DNA from: Flavivirga sp. 57AJ16
Lineage (GTDB): Bacteria > Bacteroidota > Bacteroidia > Flavobacteriales > Flavobacteriaceae
Reading direction: 5' to 3'
NCBI RefSeq assembly: GCF_028736925.1
Contig: NZ_JAQZAT010000001.1
Span: 434,001-498,000 of the forward strand
Length of the DNA: 64,000 nt
Below the pieces are notes generated by a model. It was not told the origin of the DNA, searched no databases, and worked only from the letters and a program-made list of their open reading frames with translations. The translations under genes and the position numbers were made by a program. This document shows positions 13,505 through 62,815 of this stretch, one piece after another (the first letter of the stretch is position 1; each line of letters begins with the position of its first letter).

Positions 13505-13512
13505 TATTTTTG
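13505..13512 (+). promoter_or_regulatory. Probable original tRNA-Leu -7 element, now driving the displaced half
   Basis: TATTTTTG lies exactly 11 bases before the first base of the displaced tRNA 5' half (13524). The same 11-base spacing occurs between TAAATTTG (13885-13892) and the intact tRNA. This is consistent with this site being the ancestral tRNA promoter. Confidence 0.5.
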
Positions 13513-13523
13513 CTATTCGATAT

Positions 13524-13624
13524 GCTCAAGTACCTGCCTAACGGCAGGTAAAGCGGATTTACCTACCGAAGGTAGGATTGGTAGACCTGTCGGCAGACAG
13601 GCAGGCGCGCTGGATTCAAAATCC
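13524..13624 (+). pseudogene. Displaced 5' half of tRNA-Leu(CAA), invaded by three palindromes
   Basis: Three tRNA pieces can be read in order: GCTCAAG (13524-13530), GCGGA, then ATTGGTAGAC. GCGCTGGATTCAAAATCC follows and ends at 13624 in the anticodon stem. They match the intact tRNA-Leu at 13904, base for base, over more than 40 positions. Between the pieces are three palindromes: TACCTGCC-TAAC-GGCAGGTA (13531-13550), CCTACC-GAA-GGTAGG (13562-13576) and CCTGTC-GGCA-GACAGG (13586-13601). The 3' half of the tRNA is absent. This is a dead copy left upstream of the GIY-YIG gene. Confidence 0.85.
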
Positions 13625-13641
13625 TTACTACAATTTATGCT

Positions 13642-13887
13642 ATGTTTTATGTTTATGCCATTTCAAGCCTTAACAAAAACTACATTTATGTAGGCTTAAC
13701 CCAAAACCTTGAAGCCAGGATTGAAAGGCATAATCAAAAAAGAGAAAAAACAACAAGGGCTTATGTGACGTTTCAATTGATTTATTCAGAACAGACTGAG
13801 ACCCGAATTGAGGCAAGAAAGCGGGAAAAATATTGGAAATCTGGAATTGGTAAAGAAAAACTTCGTTTAATTCGAGATAAAAGTTAA
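13642..13887 (+). CDS. Small GIY-YIG nuclease domain protein
   Basis: The 81-residue protein is a minimal GIY-YIG domain. The paired motif is seen as FYVYAISS and YIYVGLTQNLEARIERHN, with the conserved arginine in LEARIERHN and the catalytic glutamate in EARKREKYWKSG. Such small UvrC/homing-type domains cut DNA; the many flavobacterial stand-alone copies have no assigned role. It sits between a displaced 5' half of tRNA-Leu and the intact tRNA-Leu. Its stop codon overlaps the -7 element of that tRNA. The layout suggests that the nuclease gene arrived together with a replacement tRNA 5' half. Confidence 0.85.
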   Translation: MFYVYAISSLNKNYIYVGLTQNLEARIERHNQKREKTTRAYVTFQLIYSEQTETRIEARKREKYWKSGIGKEKLRLIRDKS

Positions 13888-13892
13888 ATTTG
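13885..13892 (+). promoter_or_regulatory. -7 element for intact tRNA-Leu, overlapping the GIY-YIG stop codon
   Basis: TAAATTTG matches TAnnTTTG. Its first three bases are the TAA stop of the GIY-YIG gene, and it lies 11 bases before the tRNA. Confidence 0.5.
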
Positions 13893-13903
13893 CAATCCAA
13901 AAT

Positions 13904-13985
13904 GCTCAAGTGGCGGAATTGGTAGACGCGCTGGATTCAAAATCCAGTTTCTTCGGAAGTGTGGGTTCGATTCCCACCTTGAGTA
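13904..13985 (+). tRNA. tRNA-Leu (anticodon CAA)
   Basis: The 82-base molecule folds as a class II tRNA. The acceptor stem is GCTCAAG paired with CTTGAGT (one G-T pair), followed by discriminator A. The D arm is GCGGAATTGGTAGACGC. The anticodon stem CTGGA/TCCAG carries loop TTCAAAA with anticodon CAA. The variable arm is TTTCTTCGGAAGT, and the T stem GTGGG/CCCAC carries loop TTCGATT. CCA is not encoded. Its 3' end is the likely attachment site of the downstream island. Confidence 0.97.
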
Positions 13986-13986
13986 C
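13974..13986 (+). repeat. Attachment-site repeat, left copy (tRNA-Leu 3' end)
   Basis: CCACCTTGAGTAC spans the T stem end and acceptor 3' strand of tRNA-Leu. The identical 13 bases recur at 17564-17576. A TTCC context precedes both. Confidence 0.7.
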
Positions 13987-14032: not shown

Positions 14033-14248
14033 ACTTTTAATATTTGTACGATTGAATTAATTTTGCTGCTAAAAAACACAAAGTTTGTTTTACTAAAACA
14101 CCTCTTACATTTTCTAAATAATTACTTAGAAGTGTAAATGAAATATATAAATTGCTTTCTACTGAGATATTATTCTATAATATAGCAAAATATAATAAAA
14201 GTTATTATATTTTAGAGTTGGGATTCTTAAATTTGAAAAAAACATTTG

Positions 14249-15277
14249 ATGACTACAATACTGAAGGAAAGCAAAAAACAAGTTGAGCTATTAGATTGTA
14301 AATCTAAAATTCCACGTATAATAAAATATATGGGATCTAAGAGGGAACTTTTAGATTTTATAAAATGAAATTTACGATGGTGAGCCCATTTGCGATCTTT
14401 TTGCTGGGACTAGTGTTGTAAGTGGTGCTTTGGGGCATAATGTTAATACATACTCTAATGACATTCAAGAATATTCTGCTGTATTTGCAAAAACATATTT
14501 AGGTAATTATAATTGGGAAGAGTACCCAAGAATTATTGATGATGTGATAGTGATTGCTCAAGAGTATGTTGATAATGTAATGAAATCATATCCTGATTTA
14601 GTTTTTGATTATACAGATATTACTCTTAATGAATTTAATGCTTTAGAGCAATTACAACAAGATTTAATATCTCAAAATTTTGAAGATATTGAGCATCACT
14701 TATTTATTAAAAATTATTCGGGAACTTATTGGTCTTTCAAACAATGTTTATGGATAGATGCGCTTAGAGTAGCAGCAGAAGAATATTCAAATTCGCCAGT
14801 TTATTATCCATTATTGTCAAGTATAATGTATGCTATGGCTTACAATGCGCAAAGTACTGGGCATTATGCTCAATACAGAGATGCTAATAATATAGCTTCA
14901 ATGGAAGATATTATTATTTATCGAAATAAAAGTATTTTACCTTTCTTTAAGAAAAAACTTAATGAATTGATTGAATATACTGGAAAGAATAAATACAATC
15001 ATACTATCACTTCTTTAGATTATATTGATTGCTTAGATCACACTCCCAATGGAACGATAGTTTATGCTGATCCTCCATACACGTTTGTGCATTATTCAAG
15101 ATTTTATCATGCGCTAGAAACATTGGTAAGGTATGATTATCCAGACGTTTTGTTTAAGGGAAGATATAGAACAGATCGACATCAATCTCCTTTTTGTAAA
15201 AAAACAACCGTTACTCAGGCATTTCAAGAAATGTTTGTGAAAATCGAGGAAAAAAAATCAAAATTAGTATTAAGCCT
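14249..15277 (+). pseudogene. D12-class DNA adenine methyltransferase, frameshifted and C-terminally truncated
   Basis: An ATG at 14249 opens MTTILKESKKQVELLDCKSK, then IPRIIKYMGSKRELLDFIK and a stop at 14366-14368. One base away in frame the protein continues EIYDGEPICDLFAGTSVVSG (the AdoMet-binding motif) and reaches the catalytic VYADPPYTFVHYSRFYHAL. It ends abruptly after KSKLVLS, where this family normally continues with a further C-terminal segment. The family adds a methyl group to N6 of adenine, often in restriction-modification systems. One frameshift near 14365 and a deletion junction near 15277 make this copy non-functional. Confidence 0.85.
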
Positions 15278-15507
15278 TCTTTATCCCTGATGAGTTCTGG
15301 ACATAATTTTTCCACTATATTGGGTTTGTAAGCAACTATTCCTATTGTTTGTACATATTTGAAATCTCTTTCATTTAGACGAACTCCTTTTTTTGAGCAA
15401 AATTTTTTGAAATTCTGAATCAGTTTATCATTTTTTTCCAACTCCTGAATTTCTTGTTTCTTTAAATTCTCAAAATACTCTTTTTGAAAATCAGTATACT
15501 CCCTCAT
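15211..15507 (-). CDS. Unknown protein, probably truncated at its C-terminus
   Basis: From ATG 15507 the frame encodes MREYTDFQKEYFENLKKQEI and a charged helical stretch, then KFCSKKGVRLNERDFKYVQT and a globular-looking region ending PELIRDKEG. After about residue 78 the frame runs into the antisense of the methyltransferase gene (LILILIFFPRF...), so the true C-terminus appears to have been deleted with the end of that gene. I do not recognise the family. An upstream in-frame ATG at 15585 adds an implausible hydrophobic lead. The gene is convergent with the methyltransferase. Confidence 0.4.
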   Translation of the reverse strand: MREYTDFQKEYFENLKKQEIQELEKNDKLIQNFKKFCSKKGVRLNERDFKYVQTIGIVAYKPNIVEKLCPELIRDKEGLILILIFFPRFSQTFLEMPE

Positions 15508-25715: not shown

Positions 25716-25999
25716 ACGTGAGTTCGATGTAAGCATAATATTATTAAGCTGATTATCAAAAATTTAACCTTGATTGTCAGGTTGAGCACTTCGGTAAACT
25801 CAGCACAGGCTCTGTCGAAACCCATTTAAATAGCGGTTTTAATGTCCTTTCGACTTTAGTTTATGCTGAGCCTTTCGACTTCGCTCAAGATAAACTATAG
25901 CCGAAGTACTCAAGGCGACAAATAGCATTATTAGTGAATTTATTGTTAAAAACTCCCTTGCCTGCCTGTCGGCAGACAGGTTTTAAATCGAACTCACGT
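25716..25999. mobile_element. Inverted-repeat element family B, copy 1 (284 bp)
   Basis: The ends are ACGTGAGTTCGATGTAA at the left and TTAAATCGAACTCACGT at the right, imperfect inverted copies. The 7-base sequence TAAAATA flanks both sides directly (25709-25715 and 26000-26006). The interior holds palindromes, including a CCTGTC/GACAGG type, and short TCGACTTTAGTTTAT-like segments seen elsewhere in the window. No coding frame is present. Confidence 0.8.
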
Positions 26000-62614: not shown

Positions 62615-62815
62615 ATTATATCTTTTATGGTTTCTAATTTAACTCAAAATTTATAAAAAAGCTGTGTTAAAATATTTATTTTAAATATAATAAAGAACCC
62701 CTTAAGAATCATAATGCATTGATTTTCGGAAATATAAAACTCCCTACCTATCGACAAACAAGCTCACTTTGACCTGAATGGCAAAATATGACACTTTTTA
62801 GACCTTTTATAACAT

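Follow-up and report, generated by a model that had tools for sequence, protein, structure and literature searches.

A small GIY-YIG nuclease unit inside a tRNA-Leu(CAA) gene of Flavobacteriaceae: a probable minimal element that replaces the tRNA part it destroys

Organization of the locus

The window is a 64-kb stretch of a Flavobacteriaceae genome (G000, contig C1, positions 434001-498000). In it, a 380-bp unit stands between the dead 5' half of a tRNA-Leu(CAA) gene and a complete tRNA-Leu(CAA) gene (Table 1). Its components are one GIY-YIG gene, a 20-bp palindrome able to fold into a hairpin, and a second version of the tRNA-Leu(CAA) promoter and 5' part. Both tRNA copies are preceded by a TAnnTTTG promoter octamer. 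TATTTTTG and TAAATTTG each stop exactly 11 bases ahead of GCTCAAG (13524 and 13904), and TAAATTTG overlaps the TAA stop of the nuclease gene (13885-13887). The sequence-only reading of this DNA had described a partial 5' copy before the GIY-YIG gene, the whole tRNA after it and an equally spaced promoter before each copy, the downstream one running into the stop codon, and all of this is borne out. It had also taken the upstream copy for one half ending in the anticodon stem. The copy does extend that far, but it is not continuous, being broken up by three hairpin-forming inserts. The last of these, CCTGTCGGCAGACAGGCAGG, forms a CCTG...CAGG hairpin of 20 bp and separates GGTAGA from CGCGCT. 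The two tRNA copies agree over their short overlap, while their promoter regions differ and are too short for donor assignment. The right-hand promoter may be either foreign or locally duplicated, given the short sequences and the general likeness among promoters here.

Between the tRNA copies, the open reading frames of at least 40 aa are the nuclease gene and one antiparallel 79-aa frame overlapping it. No integrase gene is found among these frames, the domain libraries having been run on the nuclease only. On the 3' side of the tRNA (14246-15290) lie two DNA adenine methylase-like pieces with IKYMGSK and DPPY motifs in separate frames, probably a decayed gene.

Table 1. Features of the split tRNA-Leu(CAA) locus, in window coordinates
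Feature	Position	Strand	Basis
TAnnTTTG promoter element TATTTTTG of the original (native) tRNA-Leu(CAA) promoter	13505-13512	+	Sequence; comparison with empty sites
Partial tRNA-Leu(CAA) copy, 5' part (relic half)	13524-13624	+	Sequence
Relic tRNA-Leu 5' half, first piece GCTCAAGT	13524-13531	+	Sequence
Palindromic insert ACCTGCCTAACGGCAGGTAAA, acceptor/D-stem junction of relic half	13532-13552	+	Sequence
Second palindromic insert TTTACCTACCGAAGGTAGG in relic half	13558-13576	+	Sequence
Relic tRNA-Leu D-loop piece ATTGGTAGA	13577-13585	+	Sequence
Characteristic 20-bp family palindrome CCTGTCGGCAGACAGGCAGG, D-loop/D-stem border of relic	13586-13605	+	Sequence; relatives
Remainder of relic tRNA-Leu half CGCGCTGGATTCAAAATCC, extending past the anticodon to the 3' strand of its stem	13606-13624	+	Sequence
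GIY-YIG nuclease gene, 81 aa	13642-13887	+	PF01541 E 4.9e-17; AF2 model; purifying selection in congeners
Element-borne TAnnTTTG promoter element TAAATTTG of the whole tRNA	13885-13892	+	Sequence
Complete tRNA-Leu(CAA), taken to be chimeric, its 5' part from the element and its 3' part native	13904-13986	+	Sequence; empty sites

The GIY-YIG nuclease

PF01541 is the sole domain of the 81-aa protein above the cut-off. Residues Y16, R26, H30 and E62, at catalytic positions of GIY-YIG enzymes, are invariant across 60 nuclease sequences. The AF2 model has a pLDDT of 96.7. Its nearest folds are UPF0213, SLX1 and I-TevI, with a Foldseek E of 3.2e-3 at best, and the closest solved structure by sequence is the UPF0213 protein BH0048 (1zg2, E 5.4e-9). 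The protein has GIY-YIG sequence and fold in common with UPF0213, SLX1 and the catalytic domain of I-TevI, but differs from these relatives in being a bare GIY-YIG domain. The company of tRNA genes and palindromes is a feature of the window element that is not met for the three in the partial source material consulted. Given the SLX1-like relatives, a structure-sensitive nuclease is plausible. In congeners dN is well below dS (e.g. 0.032 vs 0.533 and 0.049 vs 0.133), and the protein is therefore in use. A phage origin was considered and rejected; one scan of viral contigs with short patterns matched two stretches, neither encoding a relative.

Empty and occupied sites within the genus

The tRNA-Leu(CAA) core is matched exactly once per genome in all 12 genus genomes, our own included, and one defined site shows presence and absence of the element among these close relatives. 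Eight genomes, our own included, carry it, the G002 copy with a stop inside the gene. Each of the eight has one close nuclease copy (at least 59% identity), at the same locus. Three others (G003, G008 and G011) have a clean empty site with prs, promoter, one intact tRNA and terminator-like sequence. In the last, G004, a 5' fragment bearing another palindrome stands straight before the whole tRNA and the nuclease gene is absent, most simply a deletion derivative. The 120 nt to the left of the relic half match the empty sites at 117/120 (G011), 110/120 (G003) and 106/118 (G008) positions, and the window's 3' flank matches them at 47/58, 35/43 and 35/47, respectively. Because its left flank matches the 5' flanks of the empty sites, the relic half is the original one. 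It follows from the empty sites and this native flank that the unit entered the tRNA gene, supplying a new promoter and 5' part. The element thus sits inside a tRNA gene whose old 5' half survives as a dead relic carrying the palindrome at its D-loop border, and the whole downstream tRNA has element sequence before it and a flank like that of an empty congener after it. This agrees with the earlier proposal that a mobile unit had inserted with the old half left upstream, and the relatives with promoter and tRNA-Leu(CAA) but no GIY-YIG gene to which that proposal pointed are the three empty congeners.

A scar without a nuclease gene is also seen elsewhere in our own genome (L144, C1, about 62743-62762), where the 20-bp palindrome interrupts a 3' tRNA-Gly fragment lying behind a whole tRNA-Gly(GCC), in an arrangement like form B below. 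Because gene-less scars exist (G004 and this tRNA-Gly), a palindrome and tRNA fragment may form with no gene involved, or may persist after its loss.

Relatives and their tRNA targets

One genome per species was scanned for relatives of the nuclease, and the best 80 of 109 were kept. A tRNA or tRNA fragment adjoins the gene in all of these best 80, and a co-oriented tRNA lies within 700 bp in 75. Two mirror forms occur. Form A, with a 5' fragment, the nuclease and then the whole tRNA as in the window, accounts for 58 of the best 80, and form B, with the whole tRNA, the nuclease and then a 3' fragment, for 17. The remaining five are at a contig edge or are tandem copies with tRNA fragments. Form B replaces the 3' part of the tRNA, usually from the T arm outward. 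Replacement of one tRNA end thus recurs at several tRNAs, and small GIY-YIG genes beside duplicated tRNA parts, which the sequence-only reading had suggested looking for, recur among these relatives. In 66 of the 75 loci the opposite-side match to the same tRNA beats the best of 488 control stretches, drawn from the same loci and so not independent. In eight of the other nine (L024, L039, L046, L057, L073, L076, L082 and L091) a fragment is visible by eye and is palindrome-riddled, short or tandem; in L063 a decayed tRNA trace alone lies on the opposite side. Junctions at L008, L011, L058, L063, L073, L076, L082 and others were read by eye where cited. Chance resemblance is rejected on the recurrence among relatives and on the controls.

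The tRNAs at the 75 loci are 64 Leu(CAA), five Leu(UAA), three Leu(GAG) and one each of Ser(GGA), Ser(UGA) and Arg(CCU). The target tRNAs in all are Leu(CAA/UAA/GAG), Ser(GGA/UGA) and Arg(CCU/UCG). More distant relatives adjoin Arg(UCG), Arg(ACG), Pro, Val, Met and Ala tRNAs, the Val, Met and Ala cases being tRNA adjacency alone, without an established fragment. In an order-level sample, not sorted by subfamily, a co-oriented tRNA lies within 700 bp at 13 of 28 GIY-YIG loci and none at the other 15. The prs gene is in the fetched stretch, on the opposite strand, in 58 of the 64 Leu(CAA) cases, form B included; since it lies beside both forms, one locus has been struck from either side. Promoter copies (L072 and L088) or a terminator copy (L083) travel with the tRNA fragment. 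Tandem copies are found at L076, L080, L082 and in G008, and apparently at L065 and L088. They show that a restored tRNA can accept another copy, or that units amplify.

Palindromes

All form A (58/58) and form B (17/17) loci have a palindrome on the fragment side at a distance of no more than 200 bp, and one is also present beside all five others. By the same loose test 36 of 1385 control windows, again from the same loci, are positive. By a stricter test, palindrome density drops from 2.53 per kb at up to 200 bp from the gene to 0.008 per kb farther than 500 bp away (79 vs 3), and the three far matches are unlike family members. The commonest insertion points are GGTAGA^CGCGCT at the D-loop/D-stem border, AAGTG^GCGG at the start of the D-stem and GGG^TTC at the T-stem/T-loop border. 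Those in Arg(UCG) are GGATA^GAAT and TCAGA^TTTCGGC, the anticodon stem/loop border. These borders were set by eye from the standard tRNA fold, and some insertion points are inside a loop or stem, off the border (L062, L077, L084, L088 and L093). The GGTAGA^CGCGCT palindrome is present in 55 of 60 form-A rows; of the other five, L046 is a non-palindrome, L084 and L093 insert elsewhere and two are unscorable. An AAGTG^GCGG insert is present in 17 of 44 scorable form-A rows (16 are unscorable). Five loci of genomes already represented were omitted from this scoring. This site requires at least 11 changes on the nuclease tree, so the insertion recurs, and the congeners L100 and L101 differ by a precise palindrome insert at it.

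The sequence-only reading had the unit enter at the anticodon, and in this it does not hold as a general account, since the left copy of most Leu(CAA) relatives continues for only about 6-9 nt after the D-loop-border palindrome. The insertion itself, the replaced promoter and 5' part and the old half upstream stand. The match reaches the anticodon region in a minority: the window, L053, L082 and L171, and also L092 at Leu(UAA).

In our own genome the 20-bp palindrome has 38 copies at no more than one mismatch (control 0), these genome-wide copy numbers covering the CCTG palindrome only. Among 20 such loci read, many are inside other repeats and one is inside another hairpin. No close nuclease gene accompanies the 6 CCTG palindromes of G004 or the 17 of G011. 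One copy in the window, at 25961-25980, is inside a longer repeat, with AAAACTCCCTTG before the palindrome and TTTTAAATCGAACTC after it, and this repeat is present at 8 of the 20 loci read. In the form-B loci L038, L068, L078, L085, L089 and L090 the end of the nuclease frame overlaps the palindrome, so that the stop and the final residues (GLSTDR or GLSADR) come from palindrome sequence. The relic 5' half of L001, L024, L039 and L057 has a palindrome doublet around GCGGA, with TAAA/TTTA arms in L001; such doublets are reminiscent of REP doublets. L129 (G004) and L171 (G154) have a different palindrome, CCCGATAGCTATCGGGA, in the same D-arm region of the relic half.

Paralogs away from tRNA genes

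Our own genome has 13 GIY-YIG matches. Across the genus, 22 paralogs are located off tRNAs. A hairpin of at least 7 bp lies upstream in 15/22 of them and downstream in 11/22, against 17/457 control windows, counts that are not independent because the 22 include orthologs and the controls come from the same loci. Seven have no upstream hairpin and five have none on either side. The palindromes differ in sequence between subfamilies and several form an inverted pair. The paralog units resemble REP/RAYT units with a GIY-YIG enzyme. On contig C12 of our own genome (62664-63905; L006, L007 and L009), three similar tandem GIY-YIG genes are spaced at about 505 bp and have ATTCCTGC palindromes between them; one of the three contains an internal stop.

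Distribution and phylogeny

A nuclease match at E <= 1e-12 is found in 18 of 149 family genomes, six of the 18 at 59% identity or more. The palindrome occurs in 14/18 match-bearing genomes vs 33/131 others (Fisher 2.3e-5), a co-occurrence that is partly by construction because the element itself carries the palindrome. The nuclease tree, which is short and poorly resolved and leaves out 7 duplicate loci and rows under 60 aa, mostly follows host genera. Two congeners have nuclease proteins that match named Flavivirga records exactly. An argument for horizontal exchange draws on this tree and on pairwise identities, where some loci are discordant. In G009, prs is 94% identical to that of the window, but the nuclease comes closest (74-78%) to the nucleases of hosts sharing only 66-75% prs identity with G009. 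The window nuclease is 81% identical to that of Algibacter (prs 93%) vs 70-75% to those of congeners (prs 94-97%). The AU test does not reject genus monophyly of the nuclease (p-AU 0.213), nor does it reject the genus clade on prs (p 0.295). Twelve duplicate loci were named for exclusion in the identity and AU comparisons. Because the tree largely follows genera and monophyly is not rejected, much of the distribution could be vertical, with losses.

Proposed mechanism and alternative explanations

We consider it likely that the locus holds a minimal selfish GIY-YIG element, one that targets tRNA arms for insertion and brings with it a substitute for the portion destroyed. The nuclease would cut an empty tRNA gene at the border of a tRNA arm, and repair would then copy the element in from a donor locus. 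With the supplied part, a gene that is single-copy and apparently essential would stay functional. The palindrome lies where the relic was presumably cut, and its role may be to mark or protect the junction or to help in priming it. Transcription of the nuclease gene would then probably start from the native tRNA promoter, and that of the tRNA from the element's own promoter. The relic copy is broken by palindromes, yet the restored whole tRNA still holds the presumed target, and the tandem copies at L076, L080 and L082 suggest that a restored tRNA can be hit again, unlike in classical homing immunity. The sequence-only reading was incomplete, because it missed the palindromes, the mirror form, the other tRNA targets, the tandem copies and the palindrome-flanked paralogs.

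A serious contender, though we would not go so far as to call it probable, is REP-like transposition. In that case the palindrome would be the mobile module, the GIY-YIG protein would be its dedicated enzyme in a RAYT-like role, and the tRNA fragment would be a long target duplication from insertion of palindrome and gene at a tRNA hairpin. Evidence for it comes from the paralogs, where palindromes of other sequence lie upstream (15/22) and downstream (11/22) vs 17/457 controls, several as inverted pairs. The 20-bp palindrome moves alone, as seen in L100 vs L101 at AAGTG^GCGG and in the 11 or more changes on the tree; it has 38 copies in our own genome at no more than one mismatch; and its insertion points, assigned by eye, are often at stem/loop borders. 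However, the single close copy at one locus in the eight genus carriers looks like homing to a site, G004 and G011 have their 6 and 17 palindromes without a close nuclease gene, 7/22 paralogs have no upstream palindrome, and the 14/18 vs 33/131 co-occurrence is partly by construction.

Integration by homology appears unlikely. A circle of about 380 bp would pop out between the tRNA 5' copies and recombine into genes that share the tRNA 5' part, the nuclease merely stimulating the event. Direct repeats do bound the unit, and tandem arrays and clean empty alleles are the expected products of excision and integration, but the precise palindromes and the jumps between low-homology tRNAs (Leu, Ser and Arg) are left unexplained. 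It is quite improbable that the tRNA gene was partly duplicated in tandem by an ordinary event, with the nuclease gene and REP-type palindromes settling later and now inherited vertically. G004, with fragment, palindrome and whole tRNA but no gene, would fit this, as would a nuclease tree mostly along host genera. The possibility that the duplication predates the gene, raised with the sequence-only reading, gains something from G004 and is opposed by the three empty congeners, which have no duplication. Ordinary duplication is further opposed by the best 80 of 109 relatives, all with a tRNA or fragment and a palindrome, in mirror forms and at several tRNAs. GIY-YIG endonucleases reside in group I introns, and the protein has a weak TIGR01453 match, below the cut-off; a group I remnant in the anticodon loop of tRNA-Leu is nevertheless very hard to credit, as the downstream tRNA is complete and leaves nothing to splice, and the break is in the D or T arm in most relatives. 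A group I intron was also rejected on an Rfam scan of the window, which at gathering scores gave tRNA only and no ribozyme.

Comparison with known systems

Integrases of islands and phages that target tRNA genes bring their element into the tRNA gene and restore the tRNA. The window unit differs from such integrase-borne elements in having no integrase, in its length of 380 bp and in restoring the 5' part in form A.

Fungal mitochondrial mORFs are a closer likeness. According to the part of the source consulted, they carry a foreign gene end, in atp6 of Allomyces and in atp6, atp9, cox2 and nad3 of Glomus, and an endonuclease ORF (GIY-YIG in Glomus atp9) enters the gene and replaces the displaced part, with the old part staying beside it (PMC3630166). 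An endonuclease ORF and replacement of the displaced gene part are both found in the window element. As described there, mORFs concern C-terminal ends of protein genes in mitochondria (PMC3630166), whereas the window element concerns 5' or 3' parts of bacterial tRNA genes and has a palindrome at the relic junction. SegB, a free-standing GIY-YIG homing endonuclease of T-even phages, is likewise a small GIY-YIG nuclease often adjoining tRNA genes, and drives inheritance and amplification of tRNA segments (PMC13096335, PMC2988022). It sits between phage tRNA genes, and the portions of these reports consulted mention no split tRNA, replacement half or palindrome (PMC13096335, PMC2988022).

In REP/RAYT systems (REPtrons), as far as the consulted part of the source describes them, short genome-wide palindromes flank the gene of a small DNA-cutting enzyme and vary with that gene, as in the window family (PMC3733652). 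A gene flanked by cognate genome-wide palindromes is thus found here too. The window enzyme is a GIY-YIG protein, not the Y1/HUH (IS200/IS605-type) transposase of REP/RAYT, and the window-family palindromes start, as judged by eye, with CCTG or ATTCC-like stems and have no GTAG/CGTC tag of the kind described for REPs (PMC3733652). A term search of that paper found no 'GIY' (PMC3733652). On this comparison the window element is probably best read as mORF-like working combined with a REP-like palindrome. Among the titles and abstract beginnings listed in open-access searches, none describes the nuclease/tRNA-splitting arrangement, which is weak evidence of absence.

For a mobile element that encodes its own enzyme, about 380 bp would be very small. 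Its target is a tRNA gene present once per genus genome, for which it would pay with a replacement part, and the mirror forms show the same solution for either tRNA end. The element also ties REP-like palindromes of Bacteroidota to one defined family of nucleases. More tentatively, and as something that may well prove too broad, we suggest a new class of bacterial mobile elements, solo GIY-YIG nucleases with their own hairpin palindromes, moving where stems meet loops in foldable DNA. Within this class, the tRNA branch would be specialised in splitting essential tRNA genes at the D, T or anticodon arms and carrying the mending part from the 5' or the 3' side. If so, an enzyme would be supplied for families of tiny dispersed palindromes without a known transposase; CGTC REPs are described, in the part of the source consulted, as having none known (PMC3733652). 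What moves such transposase-less palindromes is a question that a single 81-residue protein and short DNA substrates make accessible to testing. For annotation, split tRNA halves beside small GIY-YIG genes are likely to be element scars. Two of the loci, L082 and L088, are on contigs labelled as Rhodobacteraceae and Saccharospirillaceae MAGs, which reflects either mis-binning or transfer out of Bacteroidota.
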